From: Flavobacterium oreochromis
GTDB taxonomy: Bacteria > Bacteroidota > Bacteroidia > Flavobacteriales > Flavobacteriaceae
DNA length: 64,000 nucleotides
Assembly (NCBI RefSeq): GCF_019565455.1
Contig: NZ_CP067377.1
Location: 3,416,001-3,480,000 of the forward strand
Direction: 5' to 3'
Shown: piece after piece, positions 4,676 to 34,583 of the stretch
Layout of the letters: the number at the start of each line of letters is the position of its first letter
Numbering within the stretch: the stretch's first letter is position 1
Made by a program: the position numbers and the translations under genes
Notes under the pieces: model-generated
Databases searched by the model: none
Seen by the model: the letters and a program-made list of their open reading frames with translations, nothing else
Told to the model about the DNA's origin: nothing

Positions 4676-5323
4676 TTATAATTTATTTATATCTATTTCT
4701 TGCAATTTTATTTTTTCTAAATCTGATTTTTCATCAGAAGTTGCGATGCAGCATTTATATCTTGAATCTATATCTATTTTTTTTACATAAAACTTTTGAC
4801 TGTCTATAACGGCAACATCTTCAATAATTTCAAATGACTTTAAAGGAATAAATAAACCATTACCATGTGATTTTATGACTGCTTCTTTTTCTGTCCAATA
4901 AGTAAAAAAACTTTGCTGCGTGTTTACAGAGGTTATCACCTTTTCAAACTCATTACCAGTCATTTGAGACTTAAACATTTCAATATCTATATTTTTATCT
5001 ATAAACTCAATATCAATTCCAATATTTGATTTGGACAAGACACATACTACTACATCATTAGCATGTGAAATATTAAATTGAATGTCTAATTCTTTTAAAA
5101 AAGGTTTTTTATTGTTTGCATAGCCAATTTCAAAATGATTAATACCAAAACATTCTTCAAGACCTTTCTTTAAAAGTAATCGCCCTAGTAAAGATAACTG
5201 AGCGTCTTGCCATCTTCTATAACGTAACACTCTTTGTTTAAATTCACTAGAAAAACTATCAATATAATTTTCAAGCAAAAAACAATGATTTTCTTCGTTT
5301 ATGTATGAATAATATACAATCAT
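4676..5323 (-). CDS. 4'-phosphopantetheinyl transferase, Sfp type
   Basis: It converts apo to holo carrier domains by moving phosphopantetheine from CoA to the conserved serine of the T domains and ACP of this cluster. About 215 residues. The two family motifs are present: IGIDIEFI (Mg2+-binding Asp/Glu) and FTYWTEKEAVIKSHG (KEA motif). The N-terminal RRWQDAQLSLLGRLLL and FNISHANDVVVC match the Sfp fold. The frame could begin with a TTG three bases earlier, but the ATG at 5323 overlaps the NRPS4 stop as TGATG, which points to translational coupling. It is the dedicated activating enzyme for the synthetases here. Confidence 0.92.
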   Translation of the reverse strand: MIVYYSYINEENHCFLLENYIDSFSSEFKQRVLRYRRWQDAQLSLLGRLLLKKGLEECFGINHFEIGYANNKKPFLKELDIQFNISHANDVVVCVLSKSNIGIDIEFIDKNIDIEMFKSQMTGNEFEKVITSVNTQQSFFTYWTEKEAVIKSHGNGLFIPLKSFEIIEDVAVIDSQKFYVKKIDIDSRYKCCIATSDEKSDLEKIKLQEIDINKL

Positions 5324-8300
5324 CAAAAATCAAAATCAATTTCAACTGAACCCAAAATCTTTTTCTCTTCAATAGTTCTCAAATCTAAAGAGCTTATTTT
5401 AGCAGATGAATTAGTTCCTAATAAATCAATCAAAATCTCCAATTTATCTAAAATTAATTGCAGATAAATTTCATCAATAAATTCACTATATTCTATTTCA
5501 CATCGTAATGTATCATTTTCAAAGAAATTAAATACGATTGGGAATCTAGATTTAGTTTTGATTACATTGTTTCTTTCCAATATAAATTCACCAAAATTAA
5601 TCTTGTTTTCCATCGCCTTATTCCCTTTTTGATAAACAATCATAAAGTCGGTGAGTTGATTTAGATTAATTTGTATTGGTGCATTATTGTTTTCGTTGAT
5701 TAATAGTAATTGATCATTACAGATTTTGAGTAATTGATGCAATGAACTTTCTTGATCTATATTCAATTGAAGGGGTAATGTCTTAACAAACATCCCAATT
5801 TGACTTTCTAAATCTGTATGATCCCTACCACTAACTATAGTTGCTAAAGTAATTTCTTGTTGTTGAAGAATTTTACTTAATACTACATTCAAAGAAGTCG
5901 CAATAACCGTAAAAACGGATGTTCTATTTGTATTTGATATTTCTTTTAAAGTTGAATGCTGCTCTTTATCAAACACTTTAATCTTTGATTTTGTATAACC
6001 AAGTGAAGTATCACTTATTAGAGCTTTGGTTTTTGCAACTTTTGAATTAAAGAAAGATGCAAAACTTTTAGAATTCTGTTCTTCCCTTACCCATTCTGTA
6101 TAATCTTTAAATTGGAAATCTTTGTTTATCGTATTGCCTTCTTCAATTTTATATAAAGAAATCAACTTAGCCAACAACAATTCTAATGAGATTCCATCCA
6201 CAATAATATGGTGTGTTAAAAAGGCAAGATGTTTTTCATTATCATCCACTTCAAAAATGGCTACTTTTAATAAAAGATCTGTATTTAGATTAAAATCATA
6301 CGAAACAAATTCTGTAATTGATTTTAATAATTCTTCTTTGTCTATTTTATGAATATCTATTTTGAAATCAACTTTTTGATTTATTAATTGTAATACTTCA
6401 CCTCGTGATTCAATAAAATTGGTTCTTAAAATTTCATTTTCTTCTATAACTTGGTTAATAGCATTTTCTAACAATTGATTGTCAATAATTCCCTTTATAG
6501 AAAAAATGGAATACATATTATATGCGTTAGAAAAATCTTCCATTTGAGTGGCTAGCCAAATGTTTTCTTGATCTTTAGTTATAGGATAGGCTTCCTTTAA
6601 AATTGCTTTAGGTATTACAATATTTTCAGTTGTTACTATTTCTAAAGATTTCGCCAACTCTTGAATTGTTTGATTCTGAAAAATATACTTTAGAGTAAGG
6701 TTTTTGTTTAATTTTTTTGAAATTTCATTTACTATTTTTACAGCCAATAAACTATGCCCCCCTAATTCAAAGAAATTATCGGTTACACCAATTTTTTCAA
6801 CATTTAATATCTCTTGCCAAATGGAAACTAATGCTGCCTCGATGGCTGTTTGCGGGGCTATATAAATCTTCTTTACTATATTCTCCTCTGAAATTTCGGG
6901 TAAGGCTTTACGATTTACTTTACCATTTGGTGTGAGTGGAATACTCATTAATTTTACAAAGAAATTGGGAACCATATAATCAGGCAATCTTTCTTGTAAA
7001 TACGATTTAACAGCTGTTGTATCTAATTCAGACTCCCCCTTTTCAGTATAATAAGCTACTAAATATTTTTGCCCGTTGATTTCTTTTGCGTCTACAACTG
7101 CTTGAATAATTTGTTTGTTTTCTTGCAATTTCGATTCAATTTCCCCTAATTCGATTCGGAATCCTCGTATTTTTACTTGAAAATCATTTCTACCTAAAAA
7201 TTCTATTTCGCCTTTTTCATTCCATTTTCCTAGATCACCAACTTCATACATCAATACTCCTTGTTCGAATGGATTATTAATGAATCTTTCTGCCGTTAAT
7301 TCAGGATTATTGTAATAGCCTTTTGCTAAACCATCGCCTGCTATGAATATTCGTCCCACCGTATTTGATGGTAACAAATTCAAATTAGCATCCAAAATAT
7401 AAATTTGTGTATTAGCAATAGGTTTACCAATATTGGATGCATCTGAAGGTTTTTCTATTTTTTTGCAACTCGACCAGATTGTTGTTTCTGTTGGACCATA
7501 CATATTCCAAACTTCTTGGCAAGATTCCAAAAGTTGTTTGGTTAATGATTCATTTAAACTATCTCCACCACATAATACTTTTAATTTCTTGCTTCCTTCC
7601 CAATTTGCATTGAATAGCATTTGATAAAAACTTGGCGTGGCTTGTATAATGGAAGGATTAACTTTTGTTAAAGTTTCTTTTAAAACATCTATATTTCCTA
7701 ACACCTCTTTACTTACTACATACACACGAGCACCACTTATAAGGGGCACAAAAAATTCTAAAATTGAAATATCAAAAGAATAGGTAGTTACAGAAAAAAG
7801 TGTATCCTGAGATTCAATTCCTGGTTGATTTTGCATACTTACCAGAAAATTACACAACGCTTTGTGTCGTATTTCAACTCCCTTTGGATTACCTGTTGAG
7901 CCTGAAGTATAAATGATATAAGCCGTATCTTCAACTTTAATTGAATTTGAATTAAAACTGGTATTTCCTTCAAATTCTAAAATCTCTTTTTGCTGATTAA
8001 ACTAACTTTGTCTGAAGATTCCTTTGTGGACTTAAAATCATTTAACAATTCATCTTCAATTATCAATACTCTTGAATTACTTTGATGGATGATGTATTTT
8101 ATTCTTTCTTTTGGTAATAATGGATCAATAGGAATGTAACTTTTACCCGATTTTAAAATACCCAGTAATAAAACAATTAAATCTGCTGATCGATTAACTA
8201 TAATCCCGATAGGTTCTTTATCCAATCCAAATTTTGAAGTTAAATAAGTTGCAACTGCATTTGATTTAAATTGTAACTCTTTGTATGTAAAGCTTATCAA

Positions 8301-9723
8301 GGAATCTTGAACTGCTACATTATCAGGTGTTTTAGCCGCTTGTACTTCAAACAACTCAACAATCGTTTTATCTTTTGGATAATCTACCTTGGTGTCATTA
8401 AAGTCATATACTAATTGGTGACGTTCATTTTTAGGAATATATTCTAGCTCTTTAAGTTTGAAATCTGGGTTTTTTAAAACATTTTGCAAAAGAATTTGAA
8501 AATGCGAAACCACTTTTTTAATCTCACTCTCTGTAAAATAGTTAGTGTGATAATCAAAGTCTATTTCTACATCTTCGTTAGCATCAAATTCTCTAATATA
8601 AAGCGCTAATGCGACTCTTTCAGCTTCGTGAGAGAGTGGAACAACCTTTGTAATAGTATCCTGAAAATGTGATGAATAGTCTTGCTTTTCATAAGAAAGT
8701 GTCATATTAAAAATTCTTTCTTTCTCATTAAAAGTACCCAATTCTTTCACTAGTTGTCCTAAAGGCAAACGTTGGTATCTATAATCTTGACGTAATTGTA
8801 TTTTAGTTGTTTCGACCAACTCAGCAAAAGTACTTTCTTGATTTATCTCGATTACTAATGGATTTACTCCCATAAACAAACCAACTGTCTTTTTAAATGC
8901 GGTACTAGATCGATTTAAAACAGGAAGTCCTATTGAAATAAACTCTTTTTGGTATCTTTTACCAAAATAAGTGTAAAGTAAAGAAAGTATGATGTGAAAA
9001 CTCGATGACTTTGTTTTTACTGCTAAATCGATTAACTGGTTATAAGTATCACGCTTTAACACCAGTTTTTCGCGAGAACTTATATTGGTTTTATTAGCTG
9101 GATCTATTTTTTTCAAACAAAGATTCAGGCAACGTACTAAATTTATCAACCCAGTATTTTTTATCTGTAGAAAACTGTGGAGATTCGAAATATTTTTTAT
9201 CGTCTTCTACGAAGTTTTGATAAGTAAAAGGATATTCACTTGTAACTTCCCCTAATTCTAAAATTTCATTATAGTTCTTAACCAATCTTGTAAACATCAA
9301 TGATGTACCCCAACCATCAGTAATAATGTGATGATATACAGAAAATAAAAAATGTTTATTTTCTGCTACTTTAATTAACACAAATCGGTATAAAAATTTA
9401 TCATTTTCAATATCAAAAGGTTTTTTAAACTCTTTTTGCATAAAGTCTAAAACAGATTCTTCTTCATATATTTCTTCTGTAAAGTCAATATACTCTAAAG
9501 GGCGAACTTCTTCTATAACAACAAAATCTACTTGATTGGATTCCACTTTTAAACAGCTTCGATACGTATCATGCTGCTTAATTAATTGAATATATGCTTT
9601 TTCAAATACTTCAAAATTTAAAATCCCTTCGATTGAAATTTTTGCACCAATATTGTAAATGGCTTCTTCAGGATATATAAGTTGCTCAAAATATATATCC
9701 AATTGCGGAAGTGTTAGTTTCAT
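5323..9723 (-). CDS. NRPS4: C-A-T-C synthetase (two apparent frameshifts)
   Basis: Merged gene of about 1,466 residues. An N-terminal C domain (HHIITDGWG near residue 133) leads to an A domain (about 454-944; YIIYTSGSTGNPKG, YGPTETTIW, NGKVNRKAL), a T domain (LGGHSLLAVK near 988) and a final C domain (HHIIVDGIS near 1173). There is no thioesterase or reductase at the end. Hand-read A code: DILQLGMIWK, close to the glycine code DILQLGLIWK. The frame breaks at the T runs 9107-9113 and 7987-7991 (plus strand). One extra base at each restores a continuous protein, and the paralogous module in NRPS1 has six A where this has five. The A-T region (6740-8380) is nearly identical to NRPS1 37151-38792. 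The start at 9723 lies 7 bases after the ABC transporter stop. The final C domain may transfer the chain or close a ring; this is unknown. Confidence 0.85.
6740..8380 (-). repeat. NRPS4 A-T segment duplicated from/to NRPS1 A3-T
   Basis: Counterpart of 37151-38792. The two differ by one base in the A run at 7987-7991, which is what breaks the NRPS4 frame. Confidence 0.85.
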
Positions 9724-9730
9724 AATTTAC

Positions 9731-11359
9731 TTAACTAATAATAGGAAGACTCATTTTTGAATTTACTTCTATGTCTTGAACGATTTGTCCATAGTCAAAT
9801 TTCACAATTCTATCTGCTTGGTCAAAATAAGCATCATCATGGGTAACCGCAATAATTGTTTTCCCTTCTCGTTTAAATTTAGGAACTAATTCTTCATAGA
9901 AATATTTTCTAAAATACGGATCTTGATCTGCTGCCCATTCATCTAAAACTAAAATAGGTCTCTCCTCTAATAATGCAAAAATTAAGGACATTCTCTTACT
10001 TTGTCCTTTAGAGAAATTTCGTCTAGCCGAATCTTCTTTATCATCCGTAACCACTTTATCCATTTCCATCAACTTTAATAATGAATGATACTCTGGATTG
10101 TTTTCTAATTTATAATGATCATAATTATGAGAAAAGACATAATTATCAGTAAAAACAGGAGCCATTAAAGATTGTAAATCGGATTTAGAACCCAAATCTT
10201 TACCATCTAGAGTAATGTCACCTGAAACTCTATCATATAAACCTGTCAATACGTTTATAAATGTACTTTTACCACTACCATTACCACCAATTATAAAGAT
10301 GACTTCGCCTTTTTTTACATTAAAATTTACTTTATCCAAAGCGAATGATTTTTCTTCTAAACTCTCACCATAGGTAAATGAAATATTTTTAAATTCTAAA
10401 GTATCAAAATCGTTTACTTTTTCACGGATTAAAGATTCTGAATGATTATCTTCTAAAACAAAGTCTTTCATAAAATCATTAATACGCTTATTTGCTACCG
10501 CAAAACGAACATATATACTTTGCATATTGATTAAGTTCGTTATTGGACCTGTAATGAAAAGTAAAATAACCACATAAGATGTTATATCTTCCTTTGGCAA
10601 TAAATTTAGATTAGGTAAAACAAAAAGAATTGCCCCAATGATAAGATACAATCCATATTGACTTATTAAATTAATGGATAAAAAAATGTAATTAATCGTA
10701 TAATTTAAATCTCTAGCTTGATCTCGATTAGGATTTAGATTATTATTTATTAAGTTCTTAGCTAATACTGAATTAATTTTAAGGTTTTTAAATCCCTTAA
10801 TAACATCATTCACATATTTAAAGTAATTTTCGTTGTATTTTCTTAAAACCTCTACTTTTCCAGTCATAGTATTCATTACTACAAAATAAACTACCGCTAT
10901 TAAAATAATTAATCCCAATACGGCTAACCCAGAATATAAAGACAATGTGAACATATACACTAAACATAAGACTAGCATTAACAACGAATTAATCGAATGT
11001 GTTACTACTTCGGGTAATGATGAAAACACTCTTACATCTTCTATAACAGTATAAAAACGCTGTGTACCAAATTTCTCTAAAGTAATGAGTTTTGTATTTA
11101 ATATTCTATTGAAAATTTTCTTTTCATTTTCATACAAAATGAAGTAGGCGTACTGATTTAATCTTTTTTGAAAAATAATGTTTAGTAAATATGTAAAAAC
11201 AATGATACATAAAAAGCCCCAAGATAAGTAAGGTTCATCATAGCCTTTTGAGTTAGATATTACATTGTTTATGATAAAAAGTATGCCAAAACTTAATACT
11301 GTATTAGGTAAGGCAAAAGCGATTAAAGAAATGATATTCTTAAATGATATTTTCAACAT
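9731..11359 (-). CDS. Peptide-export ABC transporter, fused permease-ATPase (SyrD/PvdE-like)
   Basis: The 542-residue half-transporter has about six hydrophobic helices in the first ~300 residues and then an ATPase domain. Visible motifs: Walker A IGGNGSGKST, signature FSKGQSKRMS (a variant of LSGGQ), Walker B ILVLDEWAADQD and the H-loop IIAVTHDD. This arrangement and the short permease fit the cyclic-peptide/siderophore exporter group (SyrD, PvdE, YojI) found with NRPS clusters, where it moves the product or precursor across the inner membrane. Its start overlaps the thioesterase gene by 20 bases and NRPS4 follows after 7 bases, so the three are one transcription unit. The substrate is inferred from context only. 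Confidence 0.88.
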   Translation of the reverse strand: MLKISFKNIISLIAFALPNTVLSFGILFIINNVISNSKGYDEPYLSWGFLCIIVFTYLLNIIFQKRLNQYAYFILYENEKKIFNRILNTKLITLEKFGTQRFYTVIEDVRVFSSLPEVVTHSINSLLMLVLCLVYMFTLSLYSGLAVLGLIILIAVVYFVVMNTMTGKVEVLRKYNENYFKYVNDVIKGFKNLKINSVLAKNLINNNLNPNRDQARDLNYTINYIFLSINLISQYGLYLIIGAILFVLPNLNLLPKEDITSYVVILLFITGPITNLINMQSIYVRFAVANKRINDFMKDFVLEDNHSESLIREKVNDFDTLEFKNISFTYGESLEEKSFALDKVNFNVKKGEVIFIIGGNGSGKSTFINVLTGLYDRVSGDITLDGKDLGSKSDLQSLMAPVFTDNYVFSHNYDHYKLENNPEYHSLLKLMEMDKVVTDDKEDSARRNFSKGQSKRMSLIFALLEERPILVLDEWAADQDPYFRKYFYEELVPKFKREGKTIIAVTHDDAYFDQADRIVKFDYGQIVQDIEVNSKMSLPIIS

Positions 11360-12014
11360 TGGTGCTCTCTTGTGATAAACTGTTAAAATAGTTTTGAAAA
11401 TATTCTATGTGATTAAAGATAAAAAAATGATTACCTTCCAATTTAGTTATAGTAATTTTTCCTGTTGTTTCTTCTTTCCATCCTAACATCTCCTCCTCAG
11501 TAGCTTCTTCAGAACCATAAAAAACATCAATAGGAATGTTTAGTTTAGGTTTCTTTTCGTATTCATAACTTTCTACTAATTTAAAATCATGTCTTAAAAT
11601 AGGTAAATAATAATCTATCAATTCTGGGTAGTTTTGCATTTCTTCTGGAATTCCGCCTAAAGCAACTATCTCTTTCCAAAATTCCCGATCAGGTAAATGG
11701 GAAATTTTATTTTCTCTTGGAATGGATGGTGCTTTTTTACCGCTTACGATTAATTGTTGAGGCATAGGCAAACCTTCTTCTTGAAGTCGATGACATAATA
11801 GATAAGCCAATAGAGCTCCCATACTGTGACCGTAAATTATATAGTCAGATTTAATGTTATCTAATTTTAAATTGTTTAAAATTTCTTCAATGGTAGTATT
11901 TAAATCAGAGTTACTCCTATTTATTTCAATAGGAAGGGAACAACTAGTTTGATTAAATATCTTATTGAAAGAGTATTTATTTCCTCCAGCAAAATGGATT
12001 GTAAAAAGTTTCAT
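11340..12014 (-). CDS. Type II (editing) thioesterase
   Basis: Stand-alone alpha/beta hydrolase that cleaves wrong or stalled acyl groups from T domains. About 224 residues from the ATG at 12014. That start overlaps the stop of the N-monooxygenase as TGATG and begins MKLFTIHFAGGNKYSF. Visible features: the nucleophile elbow YGHSMGALLAY (Ser), an Asp region FYGSEEA, and the catalytic His in EGNHFFIF. This matches the GrsT/SrfA-TE type. A longer frame with a TTG start at 12023 exists but is less likely. No TE domain is fused to any NRPS here, so this protein could also take part in release, though editing is the usual role. Confidence 0.88.
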   Translation of the reverse strand: MKLFTIHFAGGNKYSFNKIFNQTSCSLPIEINRSNSDLNTTIEEILNNLKLDNIKSDYIIYGHSMGALLAYLLCHRLQEEGLPMPQQLIVSGKKAPSIPRENKISHLPDREFWKEIVALGGIPEEMQNYPELIDYYLPILRHDFKLVESYEYEKKPKLNIPIDVFYGSEEATEEEMLGWKEETTGKITITKLEGNHFFIFNHIEYFQNYFNSLSQESTNVENII

Positions 12015-13263
12015 CAACTCCAACTTAAAATTGATTTTTCATTAGTAACATCGTAAACTTCCTTATTCATTAAGGAATTAATAATAACACCGCTTCTCCA
12101 TGCTAATAAGCTCAAATTAGGATCAGCAACCCCCTAATATGTCTTGCTCCATTATGTATATAAATATTCCCTTTTAAGTCTTTATTTTTAGGTACTAATC
12201 TATACTCCTCATCTACTATAAACATTTCGTCTACCTTTTCGTAGTTAGCTGATAAATCTAGAATACATTTTGGAATGCCATATTTATACCCAGTTCCTAA
12301 AATTATTACATCTGATTTAAAACTTGAATTATTATTAATTTCTAATTCATAAGTTTTATCAGTTGATTTTACATTTGTCAACTTAGATTCATTAAAAATT
12401 TTAATAGATAAATAATTTCCTATTTCATTGTGATATAATAAATCATAAATCTGATCTAGTGTTTCACTTGAAACACCATCCGATGTAAATTTTTGTCTGT
12501 TTATTATGTCATTACGTTTGGCCACATCTGAATTAAATATATACTGGCTATAATTAGGCGTATACAGCTCATTTGAAAATGGAGTATCCTCTAATACATC
12601 TAATTTATGATTTTTAAATACCCAATTAATATGTGCAGGTTGTTCATCTTTTTCTAACTCTAAAATAAATTTTAAAATTTCACAACTACTTTGTCCGCCT
12701 CCTATTATGGTAACTATTTTGCTTGAATAATTATTATATTCTTTTAGAAACTGTGAACTATGGAAACAAGTAGATCCTAATAGTTTTTTACAAAAATCCG
12801 GGATAACTCCGGTTAAACCTGCCCCCATAATTATATTCTTAGCATATAATATTTCGTCATTAACGGCTACCTTAAAACAATCGTTGTCATAACTAATTTC
12901 CCTAACAGTTTGTCCAAACTTCAAATTTTCAAGTTTTGAAGAGACCCACAACAAATAGTCTTCAAATTCTTTTCTTTTTACATTATTAAATCCATTCCTT
13001 GCAGCAAACATGTAAAGTTTCTTTTTTTCTTTCAAATAATTAAGAAATGAGAATTGACTGGTTGGATCTAGCATTGAAACTAAATCTTTCAAAATGGAAA
13101 CTTGCAATTTTGCATCAGGGAACATTAATCCTGGATGCCAATTAAATAATTTTTTATCATCAAAAAAAACCGACTGAAAACTATCTGAAATAGGTTTTAA
13201 AAGAGCCGCTGTGCTCAAATTTGATGGACCAATTCCTACTCCTATTAAATCATATTTTTTCAT
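12014..13263 (-). CDS. L-lysine N6 / L-ornithine N5-monooxygenase family enzyme (one apparent frameshift)
   Basis: Flavin enzyme that hydroxylates the side-chain amine of lysine or ornithine with NADPH and O2. Seen: FAD motif GVGIGPSNLS, substrate/flavin region WHPGLMFPDAKLQVSILKDL, NADPH motif IIGGGQSSCE, and the late motif DVIILGTGYKYGIP, all as in the IucD/PvdA/SidA family. The frame breaks at the C run 12130-12134. One more C gives the expected tail RGVADPNLSLLAWRSG and a stop at 12014-12016, about 417 residues. Such enzymes normally point to hydroxamate siderophores. Here the next genes upstream (FAD oxidoreductase, cupin, MetRS-like) suggest instead that N6-hydroxylysine feeds hydrazine formation. 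A gap of 272 bases separates it from the oxidoreductase gene, so it may have its own promoter, although I see no clear one. Confidence 0.9.
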
Positions 13264-13535
13264 GTGTAATTTTATTTTTTTATTACTATTCAGGCTTAAC
13301 CTTTAGGTAGCTAACACTACTCGTTCCAGTGACTACAATCCATTATTTTACCATTAAGCAATCAATGAAATATTCTGTTCAAAGTATACACTATTCAACT
13401 GATTAGCATATCATCTGTACATCTCAAGCATATTTTTTATTAAAATGAATAGCTACATTTTTTTATTATAGTATAGAATTTCTTTTATCTTTTTGATTCC
13501 CGTATTTACTAAAAAACCTCTAGTTGATTGCTATA

Positions 13536-14560
13536 TTACAGATTTATCTGTTTTATAGTTTCAATTGCCAAAGCTGGTGCTAAACGGATACCCGATCCTC
13601 CGGTGGCTCCTATAACAAAATAATTTTTATCTATTTCACATATTATTGGTAACGAGTTAGGAGTATTGTATATGTCTATGTACACCTGACCGCCCAAGAT
13701 ATGCTCCGAAAAATCAGAAGTATATTTTTTTAATACTCCTTTTGCAACATTCAAATCGGTTTCAGTTATCACAAATTTTTCTGTATTCTTATTTATATCC
13801 CATTCTTCACACCGGTAACTAAATAAATATCTGTTAAAATAAGGTTGTGGTAAAAGAAATGCATCGTCATCGAAAAAATAATAGATAGATGAATCTAAAT
13901 TCTGCCATTTATCAATATGAAAAGCCACTACTTTTTTAGTTCTAACATCTCTATTTTTGGTTTTTAATATCTCAAATAAGTTTTTCCCTGAAGCATTTAA
14001 CACTACTGATGCCAAATTTTTTTTATTTACTTGGTTGATAAGACTATAACCCTCACTTTCTTTTTGAATATCTTTAATTCGAGTACCTTCAAACACTTTA
14101 ACTCCTTTTGAAGCAATCAGTTCATGTAAATAAGGAAGTAAATTCCTTTTTGTAGCATAGGCTTTTATTCGGAAATAGTAACGTGATCGTTTGAAAATTC
14201 GGCGAAAGGATAATTCGCTTTATTAATCAAAACATTTTTTTGTGTCAAATCAGCAAGAACAGCTTCTAATTTTTCTTTATGACAAACCCCAATAAAATCA
14301 CGTTCTTCCATAGGAAAATTCGTATATTCCGATACTAAATTTTTATACAGATTTATGCTTATTTCAGCTAGTGAATGCTTATATCCGCTACCATAATGGG
14401 TATGCAAATGTCCGGAATAGGCAGATATCCCATTTCCAATAACCTCAGCTTCATAAAGACTAACCCTTTTATTCGGATGCAGAAGCTTGGCATAATAAGC
14501 AAGAAAAATCCCTTGTACACCTCCACCTATTATGGCGATATCTGTTTTATCTACCACCAT
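13536..14560 (-). CDS. DAO-family FAD-dependent oxidoreductase (one apparent frameshift)
   Basis: Glycine/D-amino-acid-oxidase-type flavoenzyme. The N-terminal IAIIGGGVQGIFLAYYA binds the ADP part of FAD, and the C-terminal VIGATGGSGIRLAPALA is the matching C-terminal FAD segment. Two frames join if one base is added at A run 14173-14175, giving about 342 residues; the region between them then reads through with no stop. It overlaps the cupin gene by 10 bases, so they are co-translated. In actinobacterial hydrazine pathways a FAD oxidoreductase (Spb39, Tri27; from memory) cuts the lysine-hydrazine adduct to release hydrazinoacetic acid. I infer the same role here from gene order. Other amine oxidations cannot be excluded. 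Confidence 0.8.
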
Positions 14561-14892
14561 ATGGATAAAATTTCAAGATTGGTTTCGTGTGAGAGATTCT
14601 TAACCTGATGAGTTACCAAAGAATCAAAAAAATAAACTTCTCCTTCTTTTGCCTGAACTTCGTTTCCGTTGATATATAGAAGACCATTTCCTTTTGCAAA
14701 ATACCAGTATTCCTTTGCTTCATGCCGGTCTAGATCAGAAAGGCTATCAGGATTTACGATAAAACGGATCAGGTTAAAACTAGAGAGTTCCTTCCCCTCT
14801 ATTGTCCGGGTGAAATTATATACTTCCCGAATAGTATTTATATCGGTTGATTCAATGGGTATTGATTGCAATTCTTTTGCTGTATTTTTCAT
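14551..14892 (-). CDS. Small stand-alone cupin, candidate half of a hydrazine synthetase
   Basis: A 113-residue single cupin domain. Likely metal ligands are His57 and Glu61 in DRHEAKEYWYFAKGNG (cupin motif 1) and His95 in FFDSLVTHQVKN (motif 2). It lies between the MetRS-like gene (22-base gap) and the FAD oxidoreductase (10-base overlap). In the known hydrazine synthetases (Spb40, Tri28, ForJ/PyrN; from memory) a cupin domain of this kind is fused to a MetRS-like domain and rearranges an aminoacyl ester of N-hydroxylysine to the N-N bond. Here it is a separate gene with the same partners. Cupin identity is solid; the reaction is inferred from context. Confidence 0.82.
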   Translation of the reverse strand: MKNTAKELQSIPIESTDINTIREVYNFTRTIEGKELSSFNLIRFIVNPDSLSDLDRHEAKEYWYFAKGNGLLYINGNEVQAKEGEVYFFDSLVTHQVKNLSHETNLEILSIWW

Positions 14893-14914
14893 GTTGTTTT
14901 TTACTATGTGATTT

Positions 14915-16521
14915 TTAATTTGTTAAATCTTGTAATTTTCCAGGCAGGCATTTTTCAAGAATTTCATAGCTTATTTCTCTAAAATAAACATCGGGAGCTA
15001 TGTTTTCTTGTAACTGATTACCAATGAAGAAATTTTCGAAGTTAATTTCATTTTCAAAACATAGACTTCTCCAAAGTTTTTTAGAAATATTTGGCATAAC
15101 AGGATAAACTAATAAAGCATATCCTTTAAGCCACCAATATGAATTATTTTTCTTTGCTTCTTTGGACATTTTTAGATAAGAACTAACCCAAAGTTCAACA
15201 GGCAGCAACAATTTGGAAAAAGCAAACTCAGGAGGTTCTATGTAGTTGTTTTGTTGAACAAGCATTTCTTGTAAGTTATTAAACAAATCCTGACATAAAA
15301 CATGAGGACTATTGCTGGAAGATACTATTGCTTCTTTAATGGCTTTATTATGTTTACCGCACAATTCCGTATTTACTAGATCGATAAAATCATTAATGTC
15401 AAAATTTTTCGTTTCTTTTTCTGGATTTTGTTTTGTTAAGTAATACCGTACAACATCTGGCTGAATTCCCGAAATGGAAACAATATCGTTGCCCCAAATC
15501 ACATTTCCTCTACTGGTAGAAAATTTTTCCCCATTCAGATGGTAAAGGTAGTTCGAAATATAATAGTCGAAGGATTTGTAATGGTCAAGCGTTTCGCCAA
15601 TACCCATCAAACCTGCTGTAAACGGTAAAACAGTATCTACACCAAAACTAACAATAGAAGTGTAGGCAGAGTCTTTTGCCAAAGGATGTTCTTTTAATTT
15701 CATTTTTTCTTTACAGATATCAGCAAAAAAAACATAAGCCAGCAAGTTAGCTGTATAGCTAAAGATAACCTGTTTCTCAGAATCGTTTACGGGCCATTCT
15801 ATTCCAGTTTCCTGTGGAGTGGTAAGCCGAATGTAAGGTCCCTGAATTTGAATATATTGTTTAAATAATTCAGTAAAAGAGCCGTTATTTACCTTATTGA
15901 TAAGTTCCAACAAATTTTCGAAATCCAATTTTAAATAAAGCGAAGCTGCATCATAAAGGTTAGCATCTGGATAATTTTTTTGATCAAAAATATCTATGGG
16001 TCGATAATGCATGCCGCAATTTTCGCATAAGTAACTACTTGTAGTCGCTTTGCAATTAGGGCAATTTCCTTTTATCCAACATCCTGCAAGGTATTTTTTT
16101 TGAACAGAATCGAAGATAAAGATTTCGTCTTTTTTAATGACCTTACCCGAATCTACGAGGTTTTGTAAGAGCTCTTTTTCTCGTGTTGCAAAACTTTCCC
16201 GAAATTCATCATCTAACGGGTTGATAAAAAAATCGAATTCTATATCCAGTGCTTCAAAATCTTTCAAGATTAGTTTATGAAATTTATTACAGGCTTCATC
16301 GGTAGAAATACCTAACTGTAAGGCCTTCGACTCCATATGTGATTCATAAACATCCGAACCGGAAACGAGTAGCGCTGTACCACCTCCTCTTTGAATTTTT
16401 CGCTTTAGCACATCCATTTTTAAATAAGGTCCTGCAATATGTCCTAAATGCATTCTACCATTTGGAGTTGGGCTTGCTGGTAACAGAAAGAATTTTTTTC
16501 TTTTGAAATATTGAACTGCAT
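14915..16521 (-). CDS. Methionyl-tRNA-synthetase-like protein, candidate amino-acid-activating half of a hydrazine synthetase (one apparent frameshift)
   Basis: About 535 residues after one base is added at T run 16493-16499. The corrected start is the ATG at 16521, giving MQFNISKEKKFFLLPASPTP before the HIGH-type motif HLGHIAG. Also seen: zinc knuckles CPNCKATTSSYLCENC, the KMSKS-type loop KFSTSRGN, and class I regions VSFGVDTVLPF and GIQPDVVRYYLT. It is shorter than housekeeping MetRS, lacks a tRNA-binding EMAP-type tail, and is embedded between a cupin gene and a C45 hydrolase. In hydrazine pathways a MetRS-like domain activates glycine or glutamate and esterifies it to N-hydroxylysine. 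That is my preferred reading. The alternative is a drug-resistant spare MetRS that protects the producer. It starts 6 bases after the upstream stop codon. Confidence 0.85.
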
Positions 16522-16527
16522 GATATG

Positions 16528-17562
16528 TTAAAATTTAAATACTGAATAATTCTCTTTACAAGGTTTACCCTTTAGTGCATGAAATATTCCTTCTTTGGGT
16601 TGCATGATTACTGCGGCAACTGTTTCAGACCAATTAAAATTAGATTCGTTATGGGCGCAAGTACCAACCGGATATACCGAGTGATCCCGAAACATCGTTT
16701 TAATATCTTCCAATTCCTGCTTTTCGGCAATCTGTGCCTGCAATACTTCTAACCTTTTTCTAGAAGAGTTTTTACTGAAAATATTAACCACATCGTCTTT
16801 TTGAAGATCTTCATGCAAGTAATGATTAGTGTGTAGCAATATATCCGACTCGATAACACGATACTTACTAGGCGTTATTTCCAAGATTATTTGCTTGTGT
16901 TTGTCCTGAATGATAAAACTCCTCGAACTTGCTATGGGTAAACTTTTGATACAATCGAGACACTCGTCGATCTGTTTACATTCTAAAAATTTTCTTACTA
17001 AAAGATAAGGTGGTATACCTGCCTGCCATCCATTTGAAACGACTAGGTTGATGCATACGCTTAATCCAAAGTTATTCATTCCCATATAACCTAATAATCC
17101 TGAAAAAGAATATTGCAATATTTCAGGCTTATCCTTACCGAAAGGCTTCAATTTAAATACCTGTCCTAATGATGTCATGTCTCCATTCAGGTCAATGGTT
17201 TGGCCGGCTAGTAAATTATTAGGCCGATGTATTCCTATTGAGCTACAATCTCCAGCCAGAGTAAATGCATTAGATCCTATTATTTCTCTCCTGATTTGAA
17301 GCAAAATTGCATCCTCCAGCGTAATTCCAGCTCCTTCAGAAAGTCCTTTTATTTCTTCATAAATTTCCGGTAAATACCTTTGAATAGATTGCTGATACAC
17401 CTCTGTATATGCTTTTACATTTTTTCCATTAATCGGTTTATTGCATAACCTATTAATTTGAAAATAACCATCTTCCAAAAAGCGATGAATATCCTCTTTT
17501 AGGAAAGAACCATGTTGCTTCCCCATTTCATAATAAGTACCGCTTAACTGTATTTCTTTCAT
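16528..17562 (-). CDS. AAT-like C45 Ntn hydrolase / acyltransferase
   Basis: A 344-residue protein of the acyl-CoA:6-aminopenicillanic-acid acyltransferase type. Family marks: N-terminal GTYYEMGKQHG, LSEGAGITLEDAILLQIRRE, the segment AGDCSSIGI whose Cys would become the N-terminal nucleophile after self-cleavage between Asp and Cys (residues ~103-104), the AGQTIDLN region, and NNFGLSVCINLV. Members make or break amide bonds (peptide amidase or acyl transfer). In this operon it could remove or swap an acyl protecting group on the hydrazine or peptide intermediate; that is inference. It lies 1 base after the GNAT stop and 6 bases before the MetRS-like start. Confidence 0.82.
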   Translation of the reverse strand: MKEIQLSGTYYEMGKQHGSFLKEDIHRFLEDGYFQINRLCNKPINGKNVKAYTEVYQQSIQRYLPEIYEEIKGLSEGAGITLEDAILLQIRREIIGSNAFTLAGDCSSIGIHRPNNLLAGQTIDLNGDMTSLGQVFKLKPFGKDKPEILQYSFSGLLGYMGMNNFGLSVCINLVVSNGWQAGIPPYLLVRKFLECKQIDECLDCIKSLPIASSRSFIIQDKHKQIILEITPSKYRVIESDILLHTNHYLHEDLQKDDVVNIFSKNSSRKRLEVLQAQIAEKQELEDIKTMFRDHSVYPVGTCAHNESNFNWSETVAAVIMQPKEGIFHALKGKPCKENYSVFKF

Positions 17563-17563
17563 T

Positions 17564-18145
17564 TCAGTTACTCTGTTTTAGCCATTCTTCTTTTAGTATG
17601 GAGTAATATATGGTATCTCTTCTCCGATCATGATGCATTAAAGTATGCGATCTCAATATTCCTTCTTCTGTAGCTCCTATTTTTAACAAAGCCTTTCTGG
17701 CTTTCCCGTTCAAAACATCTGTTTTAAATTCCACCCTTAAAAAGTCCAAGTATTCAAAAGCAAACTTTAATAATAATTTTTTGTAGCTGCCATTCACGCC
17801 TGTACCCTGAAAAGAACTTCCTATCCAGCTCCAGCCTATCTCAATTCTTCTATCTGGAACCGAAATATTTCCATAAGCAGACATACCCACTATTTTATTA
17901 ATTTGTTTGTCGATAATAACAAAAGGTACCAGGCTTTTTGTTGAAAAATCTGCCAAACATTTTTGTACGTACAACTTCAAGTCTTCTTCTGTATAAAGTT
18001 CTACTGTGTAGTATTTCCAAATCGACGGGTCGGATGCTATTTCTTCCAGTTGCGATAAATCACCGGGTGAAACAATTCTTAGTTTGATTAGCTCATTCTC
18101 AATGATAAAATCCGGATTGAATAAAGTCTCTATTGCTGATACCAT
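17564..18145 (-). CDS. GNAT acyltransferase, RimJ/RimL type
   Basis: A 193-residue N-acyltransferase that uses acyl-CoA or acyl-carrier donors. The fold marks are a strand IGWSWIGSSFQGTGVNGSYK (acyl-CoA pyrophosphate-binding loop of the Q/RxxGxG/A kind) and VLNGKARKALLKIGATEEG at the end. Its start overlaps the stop of the ACP gene by one base. In triacsin biosynthesis (from memory) a GNAT acylates the distal nitrogen of ACP-bound hydrazinoacetate, so an ACP-coupled GNAT next to a hydrazine cassette is suggestive. Ribosomal-protein acetylation is unlikely given the operon. Confidence 0.8.
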   Translation of the reverse strand: MVSAIETLFNPDFIIENELIKLRIVSPGDLSQLEEIASDPSIWKYYTVELYTEEDLKLYVQKCLADFSTKSLVPFVIIDKQINKIVGMSAYGNISVPDRRIEIGWSWIGSSFQGTGVNGSYKKLLLKFAFEYLDFLRVEFKTDVLNGKARKALLKIGATEEGILRSHTLMHHDRRRDTIYYSILKEEWLKQSN

Positions 18146-18405
18146 TATTTTATTTTTTGGGTTAATAATTCATACATATCCTGAACACTTTTTGCATTGA
18201 GAAGTTCATAATCGGCAAAATCGAGAATACTTATATTTAACTTTTGCGTAATAGAGGTGAGAAAAAAAACTATTTTCATTGAGGGTAAACCCAAATCTTC
18301 TTTTATCAACATACCTGGTGCTATAGTCATAGGACAACCTACTTGGTTTAACAACTCTTCCACAACTAGATTATAAATTTCGTTTTTAATTATTAAATTT
18401 TCCAT
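18145..18405 (-). CDS. Stand-alone acyl/peptidyl carrier protein
   Basis: 86 residues, four-helix carrier fold. The phosphopantetheine attachment site is the Ser in EDLGLPSMKIVFFL (the usual form is DSL instead of GLPS). It would be armed by the PPTase at 4.7-5.3 kb and loaded by the AMP-dependent ligase encoded just upstream. It overlaps the downstream GNAT by one base. It most likely carries the building block made by this sub-operon. Confidence 0.85.
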   Translation of the reverse strand: MENLIIKNEIYNLVVEELLNQVGCPMTIAPGMLIKEDLGLPSMKIVFFLTSITQKLNISILDFADYELLNAKSVQDMYELLTQKIK

Positions 18406-18464: not shown

Positions 18465-20042
18465 CTACACATCATACAGTTCTTCAAATTGGGTTTTGTA
18501 TTTTTCATAAATATTTTTACGTTTGATTTTGTTTTGATTGGATATAAGATCATTTTCTTCCGTAAAATCATCATGTGTTACAAAAAATTTATAAATATAC
18601 TCTTCAGGATGACAAGTGGTATTATATCTTTTAACCAATGGTTCTATTTCTGAATAAGTTACGTCTTCTGAATGCGGTATAATCAGAGCAGTTAAATAAG
18701 GCCGATTATCTCCATATACAATGCAAAACTTGACTTGTGGATCAACACCTATTTTTTCTTCGATACTACGTGGCATAATTTTCTTAGAACTAGATAAAGC
18801 AATCATTTCTTTTACCCTGTTAGTGATAAATAAATAGCCTTCTTCATCCATATAGCCCTGATCGCCGGTGGCTATATAACCATCTTTTAAAAAGGTATTA
18901 TTTTGATCTTCTACAGGTGCTACAAAATAACTGCGGCATATCGGGTATTTATTTTTAATAAGAATTTGATCGTTTTCATCAAAACGCAGTTCAATATTCG
19001 GAAATATCTTACCTACACTACCTATTTTATTATTATCAGGATAGTTTTTAGCAATAATACATGTTTCATTCATCCCATATCCTTGGTATAATGGAATATT
19101 CATTGAAAAATAGAATTGAAGTACCTCTTTCGGAATGGGAGAAGAACCTGTCCATAAATAATTAATATGACCGCCTAGATAGTCCATAAAAGGTAAAAAA
19201 ATGCCTCTAGTAGCTGCATCCGATTCTATAAATTGCCGGTATGCCCGTTTTATTTCAATATTTTTTTGCAGTATTGATGTAAAATCCCGGTACAATAGCT
19301 CGTAGATATAGGGCACCCCCATCAGCACGGTGGGTTTTTCTGTTTTAAGCGAAACAAATAAATACTCTTTAGGTACAATAATAATGGTAAACCTGAAAAA
19401 TACAGCAGAATAGAGCCAATACCTTTGTTGCAATAAATTAAGTGGAAGAAATATGAGTAATCGCTCCTGATGATTGTGTTTAAAGAGATTCTGTACTCCG
19501 TTTATCGTATTTTCAATCCCTTCTACAGCATGTCCTATGATTTTTGGTTTTCCTGTGCTACCCGAAGTCATTTTATACGATATTACTTCTTCAGATGCGT
19601 ACTGATGTCTTTTTTGCTTAATCTCTATTGGAGTTATTTTGCTATCGATAAGGTCGTTCATACAAATACATTCCAAGTTTGACAGATTTAGCTTGTCAAG
19701 CTTGTCCATGTAGTATTTATCGACCAGAATACAGTTTAAGTTAAAACCGTATTCTTGCAGATAATTCACGTCTGTATTGGGTTCTAACGGTACAAGTTTA
19801 ATCCCACAGTAAATACAAGCGAAATCCATAATAACCCATTCTAAATTATTTCTCCCGAGTATCCCAATGGTTGTGGTTGCATTGTACCCTTTTTGACACA
19901 AGAATGATACAACGTGTCTGATCTTGGGATATAGTTCCTCAAAACTAATCTCAATACGTTTGTCTTTATAAAAGGAAATTATTTTACCTTCTTTATTTGA
20001 TTCGATTTCATCGATCAAATTATTTATTTGAGCTTTTTGCAT
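18465..20042 (-). CDS. AMP-dependent acyl ligase (acyl-CoA/ACP synthetase type)
   Basis: A 525-residue ANL-superfamily enzyme that activates a carboxylic acid as acyl-AMP and passes it to a thiol. Motifs: P-loop KMTSGSTGKPKIIGH, the A5 region YQGYGMNETC, ATGDQGYMDEEGYL, and the hinge ITNRVKEMIALSSSKKIMP typical of long-chain acyl-CoA synthetase relatives. The C-terminal domain is present. With an ACP directly downstream and a KAS III-like gene 1 base upstream, it most likely loads the ACP. The substrate cannot be read from sequence: a fatty acid, an aryl acid, or hydrazinoacetic acid given the neighbouring cassette. Confidence 0.85.
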   Translation of the reverse strand: MQKAQINNLIDEIESNKEGKIISFYKDKRIEISFEELYPKIRHVVSFLCQKGYNATTTIGILGRNNLEWVIMDFACIYCGIKLVPLEPNTDVNYLQEYGFNLNCILVDKYYMDKLDKLNLSNLECICMNDLIDSKITPIEIKQKRHQYASEEVISYKMTSGSTGKPKIIGHAVEGIENTINGVQNLFKHNHQERLLIFLPLNLLQQRYWLYSAVFFRFTIIIVPKEYLFVSLKTEKPTVLMGVPYIYELLYRDFTSILQKNIEIKRAYRQFIESDAATRGIFLPFMDYLGGHINYLWTGSSPIPKEVLQFYFSMNIPLYQGYGMNETCIIAKNYPDNNKIGSVGKIFPNIELRFDENDQILIKNKYPICRSYFVAPVEDQNNTFLKDGYIATGDQGYMDEEGYLFITNRVKEMIALSSSKKIMPRSIEEKIGVDPQVKFCIVYGDNRPYLTALIIPHSEDVTYSEIEPLVKRYNTTCHPEEYIYKFFVTHDDFTEENDLISNQNKIKRKNIYEKYKTQFEELYDV

Positions 20043-20043
20043 G

Positions 20044-20983
20044 CTATTTCACTTCTAATAACAAACAGATATTTGAACCCGAAGAACCTGTAGCAAACGA
20101 AAATATTTTAGAGGCCTGGGGCAACATTTTTTCTGCTATAGTCTTTAGGTTTATGATGAAATCGACACAATCCAAATGGCCGTATTTATATATATTTTCC
20201 TTAAAGAACTGAGACTCTTTAAAACCCAAACTGGAAAGGCATTGGGTAACCAAAATCGGATTGGCATTTTGGATATTAACATACATATAATCTTCAGGTA
20301 CTAGCTGATGAATTGCAATACATTCTGAGATACATTTCAGGTAGTTTTTACAAAGCAATAAAGAATTATTTGTATCCTGATCAGCATTATACAAAAGTCC
20401 GTTAGTATATGAATGTTTGGCTACTATAGTAAAACCTTCTTTCTCATCGGTATTCATATAGATTATTCCGGCACCATCGCCATGAATCGCATAGGTTCCT
20501 ACGGTTCGTTCTCCTATATCAATAATTTTGTTTGCAGCAAGGATAATCAAATTTTTGACCATTCCTGATTGTAAAAGCCCCTCGGCATAACTAACAACAA
20601 ATTCGGTATTTGCACATTGGTTTCCTGATATAGATAAAAATTCGGCATTATCCAGTTCGTGTTTGTGAATTAAATAATGTCCTAAATTTTTCATTCGTTG
20701 ATTTCTACCTAAGTCATCGTTGATTAAAATGAGCAAATCGATTTTTTGCTTATCGATTATTTTTTTTCAAAAAATTATTTAAGAGTATATCGAACATCGT
20801 CTCCTCTTTCATCGTATCAGCATAAGCTACTTCCGTCAAATTAATGCTGGTTTTAAAAAAATTTATTGCTTCATTAGCAGTCGTAAACGCCTTCGGTATT
20901 TTTTTTGATTCTGCCACCTTCGTAAAAATTTCTTCTATTGAAATCCTTTCCTTAGGTATATAGTAATCTAAATATTTTATCAT
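20044..20983 (-). CDS. KAS III (FabH)-like condensing enzyme or acyltransferase (one apparent frameshift)
   Basis: Two frames join at the T run 20760-20767 (one base fewer or two more needed) to give about 312 residues. The N-terminal part has MIKYLDYYIPKERISIEEIF, typical of FabH relatives. The second part holds SISGNQCANTEF with the catalytic Cys, then AIHGDGAGIIYM and a C-terminal FSFATGSSGSNICLLLE glycine-rich loop. The FabH Asn of the Cys-His-Asn triad may lie in NIQNANPIL; the His is not obvious, so it could be a CerJ-like acyltransferase rather than a true condensing enzyme. It lies 5 bases after NRPS3 and 1 base before the ligase. Confidence 0.75.
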
Positions 20984-20988
20984 GATAA

Positions 20989-23900
20989 TTAATTTTCTTG
21001 TAAAATTATATCTTCTCTTTTTAGTAATTCTAGAGTTTTTTCATTCAATATAATACGAACCTTGTCTCCTAAATCAACAATATCATCTTGATCAATATCA
21101 AAAAACGGTAACCTCCACGAAATAGGTAACACTTCTTTTCTTGCTGTATTTAACCACTCTTCCTCATCTACACAAGTCAATTTATCAATATCTTCTCCGT
21201 AATAATCAATTACTAAATCTTTTGGCGATTGTTGTTTTGTGAAATGATGCAAAACAGTGTATTTATCTATCCCGGAGATATAATCCTTATTTAAAAAATA
21301 GCACATATTTTTAACCAACACATTTACTGAGATAGTTAAGTATTTCACCCTGTCATAATCAGGATAGATACCCAAAATGGCACAACTTTCCAAATACTGT
21401 TTCAACCACTGATTTGAACCATCGTGTGTTTTGTTTTCAGAATCCCATAATACCAGACCTACACGATGAGTAACAATGGGAATGTCAAATTTTTCTACTG
21501 CTTTTTCTACAAGTCTTTCTGCTACCCATTTACTGGCTTTATAACCAAGGGAATTATAGTGTTTCTCATTGGCAATACTACTGGATTCATCGACAATTAC
21601 TTCCTTGTTGTAGGTCAGCATGTTAAATACAGAGGTTGTGGAAACATAATGCAATTTCTTTTTCTTTTTATTCAAACAAAATTGAAATATTTCCTCCATT
21701 CCATTCACATTAGCACGTTTTAATACATCGTAGTGTAAAACGTGGTTCATAAAAGTTGCATTATGTAGTACAAGATTTACATCATTAGACAACTCTTCGT
21801 AGATAGCACTATCTATACCCAATCTTGGTTGGGAAATATCACCTTTAACAATTACAATACGATTTTCATAACTATCCTGCCATAATCCCTTACCTGCTAA
21901 ATTCTGCTTTAGTCTAACAAAACCTTCTTTTTCAGAATCGCAACGCACCAAGCAGTATAATTTGCCCAGATCATAGTTGAACAATTCACGTATCAAATAG
22001 CAACCTACATAACCCGTTGCTCCAGTCAATAAAATATTAGGGGCTTTAGTAGCCACAAATTCTTGTGTTGGAAAATCATACGTTTTTGTAAAAATAGCTT
22101 CTTTTTCTAGGTCGAGCTGATAATCTTTATTTGATTGCCCTTTGGTATTCAGAAGTTCTGCAAATTCTTTTATGGTTGGATGTAAATAAAAATCTACCAA
22201 AGTGAATTTGGTTTTGAATTCTTCATTAATTTGAGTAATAATACTGATTGCTTTTATGGAAGTCCCTCCTACTTCAAAGAAATCCTGCGTAATTTCTATA
22301 TCCCCATGTTCAAGAATCTTTTTCCATATCAAATATAATAAGGTTTCGATACTGCTCATGGCGGTTTGAATTATCGTTTTTACTTCTGCAGGTACAGTTA
22401 CCGCAGGCATTTCCGAACGTAGTGCCGAATGTGCAAATTCCCGATGGTCAAACTTTATATCGTTGATAGACAAGTTACTATTTTCTACTGCTTGAGCCAT
22501 TGCATTTTTAATTTGTTCCAAAAAGAATACTGCAGTTTCTTCTTTATAAAGCGATACATCATATTCCATTTTTAATGAAATGGTATCGTCATGGCGAATG
22601 ACCATAAAGGTTAAATCAAATTTGGTTGTATAGTCGTTTGATTCTAAAGCTTCAATTTCGAGATCTGTTTCATCTTTCTCATTTTTGCTATAGGATTCAC
22701 TTTCAATTCCAACCACCATATAGTTAAATACAGGATTCCGATTCAATTCGTGGCGATAATTAATGTCTTCAACGATCTGTGAAAAAGGATAGAATTTATT
22801 TTCGTAGTAGTCGAGCAAATCATTAATCCTGTCCTGCAAATACTCTTTAAATTGCTTATTTTCATCAATAATAAATTTAACAGGAAGAGTATTGACAAAA
22901 AAACCAACGGTATCATTGTAGGTCTCTCCCATATCCCGCAATGTCATAGGTATACCGAATATAATCTCATTTGATTTGGAATAGTTTCTGAAAAACAAGG
23001 AAAGTGTACTTGAATAAAGCATGAAAAGGGAAACACTGTTTTCCTTGTTAAAAGCCAGTATTTTTTTACTGAGCGATTCTCCAAGATCAAGTGATACGTT
23101 CTTTCCTCCAAAATCCCTTGCGTTCATTCTTTTAAAATCGGATGGCAATTCGAAATTGAATTTGTTCATAAATTTACCTTTCCAAAAATCTTTAGTTTTA
23201 GAGGCAACCTGACTATTTAACAGATGGTTATAGTGTTGTGTAAAATGAATGTATTCAAGTGTGGGATTGGTCGTTTTCATAACTCCGTTATGATAATAAT
23301 TCATAAAGTCATTTTTGATCTGTGCCAATGCCTGTATATCAACAGTAACGTGATGAGTTTTAAATACCAGTACGAAGTCATTTTGACCTACTTGTAATAG
23401 GGAAATTTTTAAGGGAAGCGAATCGTTAAATAATTCAAATTCTGTATTCAACTCCTCTTTTAAATAATCCTCAATATTCGTTTCATTTATTTCTATTTTT
23501 TCGTATACTTGGTATTTCCCTTCCTTAGGCAATATTTTTTGCTGGAATGAATTATTTGAATAAGTATAAGTTGTTCGGAATATTTCATTAGATTGTACCA
23601 AGTGATTGACGTAGTTTGTTAATTTCACCTCATCAAGATTGCCTTTTATTCTGAAAGCAAGTAAAACATTATAAGCCAAATTTGATTCTTTGCTATACAT
23701 CGTGGCAATCAACATTTGTCTTTGATTAGGGCTCACAAGAAAAGAATAATCTTCCTTTTTATCTTCTACCTCTACTGTGGTATTAGTGGAAAGAGAATCG
23801 CTTATGAAATTAACGATGTCCTTAATTTTATTATTCAAAATAAATACTAGTGGTATTTTCACTTTGAATTCCTTATAGAAATTCGAAAGAATCTGTATGG

Positions 23901-34561: not shown

Positions 34562-34583
34562 GAGATTATTATAAAAGCATTAT

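Follow-up and report, generated by a model that had tools for sequence, protein, structure and literature searches.

The window analysed here is a stretch of 64,000 nt from Flavobacterium oreochromis (bases 3416001-3480000 on the single 3.54 Mb contig NZ_CP067377.1, assembly GCF_019565455.1). It contains a nonribosomal peptide synthetase (NRPS) cluster in which a block of genes on the minus strand appears to make a hydrazine unit and to feed it to the NRPS. Homology and gene order make this scheme as a whole likely, and its core can be classed with considerably more confidence as a hydrazine synthetase split into two proteins, a methionyl-tRNA synthetase (MetRS)-like protein and a cupin. Most of what is known of hydrazine-building chemistry comes from Streptomyces and related bacteria. 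If the scheme is right, this chemistry would also operate in Bacteroidota NRPS clusters, those of Flavobacterium among them, and a naturally separate two-protein synthetase would be useful for biochemistry.

The candidate two-protein hydrazine synthetase

A preliminary description of this DNA had pointed to genes for an N-monooxygenase, a DAO-type FAD oxidoreductase, a cupin and a MetRS-like protein in a row at 12014..16521. All four are located there on the minus strand, with an ATG start at 16521 and a stop at 12014 that agree with the sequence. Pfam assigns the N-hydroxylase to PF13434 (323 bits, E 3.4e-96), the DAO to PF01266, the cupin to PF07883 and the MetRS-like protein to PF09334 (151 bits). 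The proposed co-translation of the last three genes is a fair reading, since the cupin and DAO genes overlap by 10 nt and only 22 nt separate the MetRS-like and cupin genes, compared with 272 nt between the DAO and N-hydroxylase genes.

Among solved structures, the zinc-type cupin half (14551..14892) finds 5uqp first in a phmmer search (4.3e-8), and a 41-row cupin profile (A3) reaches 1.3e-27 with 5uqp and 2.5e-19 with the next structure. In PMC8664883, 5UQP is the RHS1 protein from Rhodococcus jostii RHA1; it makes the N-N bond in vitro, for which Asp63, His65, Glu69 and His103 are required. D55, H57, E61 and H95 of the window cupin align to RHS1 D63, H65, E69 and H103, so that the three residues singled out in the preliminary description (His57, Glu61 and His95) all have their counterparts in the metal site. 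The searches place the protein with RHS1/5uqp and not with unrelated cupins, and the latter identity was therefore rejected.

The MetRS-like half (14915..16521, minus strand) has an open frame at 14915-16453, with its start at 16521 in another frame. In the tree it falls outside housekeeping MetRS, and the genome's own housekeeping copy scores 207 bits against 731; on both grounds the identity as a housekeeping methionyl-tRNA synthetase was rejected. Its best solved match by sequence and by fold is PyrN (9l8v), with a lead over true MetRS that is small by sequence alone (86.1 vs 83.0 bits). Identity to PyrN is about 20% in the fold alignment, and HIGH and KFSTS-type motifs are common to both. 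The ATP-site lysine motif KFSTS is invariant across our alignment A1, and its lysine probably corresponds to PyrN K458. The positions that we take, by E. coli numbering, to recognise methionine are replaced. The open reading frame (ORF) 14915-16453 also scores 390 bits with NCBIfam NF008863 'methionine--tRNA ligase', under the cut-off of 551, and the Robbsia copy is annotated as methionine--tRNA ligase, so that such synthetases are easily mislabelled.

The partner N-hydroxylase gene (12014-13263, minus strand) belongs to the same block as the cupin and MetRS-like genes, with its C-terminus in another frame. It appears to encode a lysine/diamine N-hydroxylase, the counterpart of AzsL/Tri26/DobG, and its matches 6xbb, 7us3 (putrescine) and 5o8p (lysine) in the PDB rank above KtzI and the ornithine enzymes. 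The DAO-type oxidoreductase (13536..14560, minus strand; putative counterpart of Spb39/AzsM/Tri27) is found in two ORFs, 14165-14560 and 13536-14096. Both pieces match PF01266, the C-terminal one slightly below the cut-off, and its relatives in Chitinophaga sp. GbtcB8 (locus L004) and an uncultured Flavobacteriaceae (L034) are single frames.

The same genes are neighbours in many other genomes. From the best 80 of 542 matches to the MetRS-like protein alone, 79 loci were obtained and scanned over some 8 kb to either side, or as far as the contig reached, with profiles grown from the window proteins. Cupin and N-hydroxylase genes stand beside the MetRS-like gene in 64 of the 79 loci, with both partners within 6 kb in 63. 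A DAO is present as well in 48/79 under the strict rule that its two halves lie in a single ORF distinct from the N-hydroxylase; a looser count of 56/79 admitted other FAD proteins. By these co-occurrence counts, the association of the cassette genes is probably no chance neighbourhood. The H/E/H residues are invariant in all 72 cupins collected, and the position of D55 varies (41 D, 28 H, 3 E), in a set that was gathered by a profile begun from the window cupin and is therefore biased toward such conservation. These cupins come from 70 of the 79 loci and two plasmid loci, after three rows that were the window itself had been dropped.

The wider block and the proposed pathway

Upstream of the four-gene cassette, the operon is extended by five further genes of the same pathway that the preliminary description did not include, and the cassette is only half of the whole block. 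From high to low coordinates the order is KAS III-like protein, AMP ligase, 86-amino-acid (aa) carrier protein, GNAT, C45 peptidase, MetRS-like protein, cupin, DAO, N-hydroxylase, thioesterase, ABC transporter and NRPS. From KAS III through DAO, adjacent genes overlap or are at most 59 nt apart.

All five additional functions were found in the window by comparison with the S. noursei locus (L076) and other loci, and with azs, tri and dob by description. The KAS III-like acyltransferase (20044..20983, minus strand, as are the other four; candidate counterpart of AzsD/Tri13) is split by a frame break into the ORFs 20750-20983 and 20044-20736. It retains Cys (GNQC) and His (YGHLD) and matches PF08545 weakly (25 bits, cut-off 24); its 230-aa ORF is 33-50% identical to single-frame relatives in L004, L034, L005 and L035, and 25% to that of S. 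noursei. The AMP-binding ligase (18465..20042, PF00501; AzsP/Tri29/DobC) has an S. noursei counterpart that reaches 581 bits against a profile built on the window ligase, at 28% identity. The 86-aa carrier protein (18145..18405; AzsQ/Tri30/DobQ) contains a DLGLPS serine motif and was identified by its position and by how it aligns with the small ORFs that relatives have there. The GNAT acyltransferase (17564..18145, PF13302; AzsS/Tri31/DobB) aligns at 40% identity with the S. noursei pathway copy. The C45 peptidase (16528..17562, PF03417; AzsT/DobA) has a GDCSS motif with a candidate catalytic Cys and scores 229 bits with NF040521 (cut-off 85).

This wider block is nearest to the hydrazinoacetic-acid route of azaserine, triacsin and dob. 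Of the systems named in the preliminary description, triacsin is thus closer than formycin and pyrazofurin; PyrN (pyrazomycin) is a fusion protein and uses glutamate. By the published table in PMC10445470, all eight azs functions (AzsD, L, M, N, P, Q, S and T) are matched in the window, and by sequence the same eight are matched in the nng cluster of S. noursei. PMC13274452 reports that the spb38-40 homologues of S. noursei keep their synteny and that the product derives from hydrazinoacetic acid. In contrast to the separate proteins of the window, AzsN and NngM are single cupin-MetRS-carrier fusions; the AzsF dehydrogenase has no counterpart in the window, and instead of AzsO (Cy-A-CP) there is a long NRPS line with a reductase. 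The triacsin (tri) and diazo (dob) clusters, compared by description, have the N-hydroxylase, DAO, synthetase, GNAT, ligase, acyl carrier protein (ACP) and C45 peptidase in common with the window but differ in the Tri22/DobM dehydrogenase and a polyketide synthase, and dob also in a ferritin-like oxidase.

RHS1 and its MetRS-like partner in R. jostii (L002) resemble the window system in being a split synthetase beside a lysine N-hydroxylase, with a thioesterase nearby and the same four metal-site residues. Identity is low (cupin 23%, MetRS-like protein 20%), RHS takes glutamate as its substrate and has a putative saccharopine-dehydrogenase gene as a neighbour (PMC8664883), and the L002 locus has no match to the C45, GNAT or ACP profiles. 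The order KAS III-ligase-ACP-GNAT-C45-MetRS-like, followed by cupin, DAO and N-hydroxylase genes and with NRPS genes alongside, is found in Chitinophaga sp. GbtcB8 and the uncultured Flavobacteriaceae; the former differs by an inserted carbamoyltransferase gene and the latter by a cupin moved behind the N-hydroxylase. We know of no experimental work on either system.

In the pathway that we propose, the N-hydroxylase would make N6-hydroxylysine, lysine being its presumed substrate. The MetRS-like protein would adenylate an amino acid, most likely glycine, and esterify it to the hydroxylamine, and the zinc cupin would rearrange the ester to the N-N bond; this second step is predicted from homology to proven enzymes and from the retained metal site. 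The DAO-type oxidase would then cleave off the lysine carbons to give hydrazinoacetic acid. GNAT would protect the hydrazine by acylation, the AMP ligase would load it onto the 86-aa carrier protein, and the C45 peptidase would take the protecting group off again. Finally, the KAS III-like protein would transfer the hydrazinoacetyl unit to a carrier domain of the NRPS. All steps but the second are predicted from homology and gene order, with the acceptor of the last one assumed. The earlier interpretation that the cluster builds an N-N-containing peptide is supported: of the outcomes named as refuting it, neither a grouping of the MetRS-like protein with housekeeping MetRS nor one of the cupin with unrelated cupins was observed.

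Alternative readings and the state of the block

Several observations weigh against the scheme. The 86-aa carrier protein has no Pfam PP-binding match, the ACP and KAS III are just 16-25% identical to the actinobacterial copies compared, and L035 has the block with no C45 peptidase identified. To these are added the pocket of the MetRS-like protein, dehydrogenases encoded elsewhere in the genome and the frame breaks, each of which bears on a different alternative.

The pocket residues, which the preliminary description had suggested comparing with known enzymes, match neither the S. noursei enzyme, whose substrate is glycine judged by its product, nor the glutamate-type R. jostii protein. Therefore, no substrate is claimed from the pocket, and glycine, which the difference from the S. 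noursei enzyme keeps from being established, is only somewhat favoured. The same machinery might instead use alanine, serine or another amino acid and yield an alpha-substituted hydrazino acid. We regard this as possible but the lesser prospect, since the enzymes further along the route correspond to ones that act on hydrazinoacetic acid.

The level of oxidation is the next point. The acyl-CoA dehydrogenase family PF02770 (AzsF/Tri22/DobM) has no match in the window, and in S. noursei one match lies inside the locus. On the block contigs of five relatives, 0 of 4 (L004), 0 of 3 (L034), 0 of 4 (L005), 0 of 16 (L035) and 0 of 23 (L006) genome matches were found, the contigs of L034 and L035 being short (30.7 and 11.1 kb). 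Since the cluster lacks an acyl-CoA dehydrogenase, conversion of the unit to a hydrazone or diazo group is not expected, and a building block at the hydrazine level is predicted. For azaserine biosynthesis, PMC10445470 assumes that AzsL/M/N make hydrazinoacetic acid (HAA). This is succinylated by AzsS and loaded by AzsP onto AzsQ; AzsT, represented by a homologue from a different strain, then removes the succinyl group to give HAA-AzsQ, and AzsF dehydrogenates. If the AzsT order holds, the product here would be hydrazinoacetyl-ACP. The dob pathway has the same enzyme set, yet in PMC13061610 desuccinylation is placed after oxidation, an order that would leave the C45 peptidase of the window without its usual substrate. 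Every other enzyme of the azs/tri/dob route is present, and four PF02770 matches elsewhere in the F. oreochromis genome could still provide a dehydrogenase that makes a hydrazone or diazo group. Given the absence of the family from the window and from the cluster contigs of the relatives, we consider this unlikely.

The assembly is frame-broken in at least the MetRS-like N-terminus, the DAO, the N-hydroxylase C-terminus, the KAS III gene, several NRPS genes and the outer-membrane barrel gene, and the block could therefore be dead in this strain as part of a decayed cluster. This is more doubtful still. Breakage also affects the LptF/G-family gene outside the cluster, and an intact 535-aa MetRS-like homologue (P0001) differs from the window ORF in 1 of 512 shared residues, so an intact gene exists in another assembly. 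In addition, a homopolymer run lies near 8 of 10 break regions compared with 31% of random 80-nt stretches, which suggests sequencing indels; the break regions vary from 41 to 161 nt, and the excess can thus be called no more than suggestive. Least probable is a siderophore pathway in which the N-hydroxylase and GNAT make hydroxamates and the cupin and MetRS-like genes are passengers: the presence within one NRPS cluster of an N-hydroxylase, acyltransferases (two GNATs) and an outer-membrane barrel gene would fit, but the retained cupin metal site, the PyrN-like MetRS domain, the C45 peptidase, ligase and ACP and the cross-phylum co-occurrence would be left unexplained.

NRPS genes, relatives and surroundings

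For the hydrazine scheme, a candidate acceptor of the hydrazino-acyl unit is the second peptidyl carrier protein (PCP) domain of the NRPS at 20989..25587 (minus strand; adenylation (A)-PCP-condensation (C)-PCP-reductase), which has no A domain of its own. The relatives examined do not share such a reductase-type module; a reductase stands by the block in L035 (L090), and none was found on the block contig of L004, L034, L005 or L006, so a conserved acceptor module was rejected. More tentatively, Bacteroidota NRPS peptides might carry, at their end or within, an N-amino-glycine unit that remains a hydrazine. The KAS III-like protein would load the A-less C-PCP-reductase module from deprotected hydrazinoacetyl-ACP, the condensation domain would use the free hydrazine NH2 as nucleophile, and a cyclisable peptidyl hydrazino-aldehyde would be released. 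If true, this would be a dehydrogenase-free branch of azaserine/triacsin logic. The hydrazone-pathway mining described in PMC13061610 began from AzaE, a fusion enzyme, and retained just neighbourhoods holding Pfam02770; under that criterion, dehydrogenase-free clusters like this one would be passed over.

The known systems cited in the preliminary description are actinobacterial. The family is not confined to that group, as it was also found in Pseudomonadota, Myxococcota, Bacteroidota and others. C45, GNAT, ACP and AMP ligase occur together in 10/79 loci (L004, L005, L006, L007, L008, L034, L073, L076, L079 and L082), and KAS III reaches at least 200 bits in 7/79. Eight of the 79 loci are from Bacteroidota (L004, L005, L009, L010, L034, L035, L053 and L070), and cupin, N-hydroxylase and DAO are present in all eight. 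P0001 is rare: at E <=1e-50 it was matched in 1/299 genus and 1/395 phylum genomes and at 1e-60 in 1/60 relatives, the match in each of these overlapping sets being the F. oreochromis genome of the window. The literature search, judged by titles and the opening of abstracts, found no Bacteroidota hydrazine synthetases, in a coverage mostly without subscription papers and preprints that supports no claim of absence in print; the main texts of PMC8664883, PMC13274452, PMC13061610 and PMC10445470 never mention 'bacteroid', and PMC11705231 has neither Bacteroidetes nor Bacteroidota.

A second Bacteroidota arrangement was observed in Flavivirga jejuensis (L009), Aquimarina sediminis (L010) and a Roseivirga metagenome-assembled genome (L053), with N-hydroxylase, MetRS-like, cupin and DAO genes and then a different AMP ligase. 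An amidohydrolase (PF04909; L009, L053), a small weakly ACP-like ORF (L010, L053) and a GNAT (L010) accompany it, perhaps as an alternative protecting-group scheme. On plasmid p1 of Robbsia andropogonis (L003, 3538-9793), MetRS-like, cupin and N-hydroxylase genes occur with a diaminobutyrate transaminase-family gene, which suggests a hydroxylamine donor other than lysine.

The remaining cluster genes are also on the minus strand. A type II thioesterase (11340..12023, PF00975), also present in L034 and L002, is followed by an ABC transporter, NRPS pieces and a phosphopantetheinyl transferase (4676..11359). Further NRPS modules with several frame breaks extend over 26887..45226. They enclose the barrel gene (PF14905, 34584-36241), and such a gene is also located inside the Chitinophaga cluster (L004 1065-3584); a role in uptake or self-protection is possible. 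Genes of other kinds flank the cluster, a Pyr_redox_2-family gene at 582-1985 and ribBA, LptF/G-family, LolA and FtsK genes from 47560 on, with ribBA 91-92% identical to its nearest relatives bearing the Flavobacterium name. The A domains in 36238-41370 and 5323-7857 have near-identical specificity stretches (NMYGPTETTIW context), which may resemble glycine codes.

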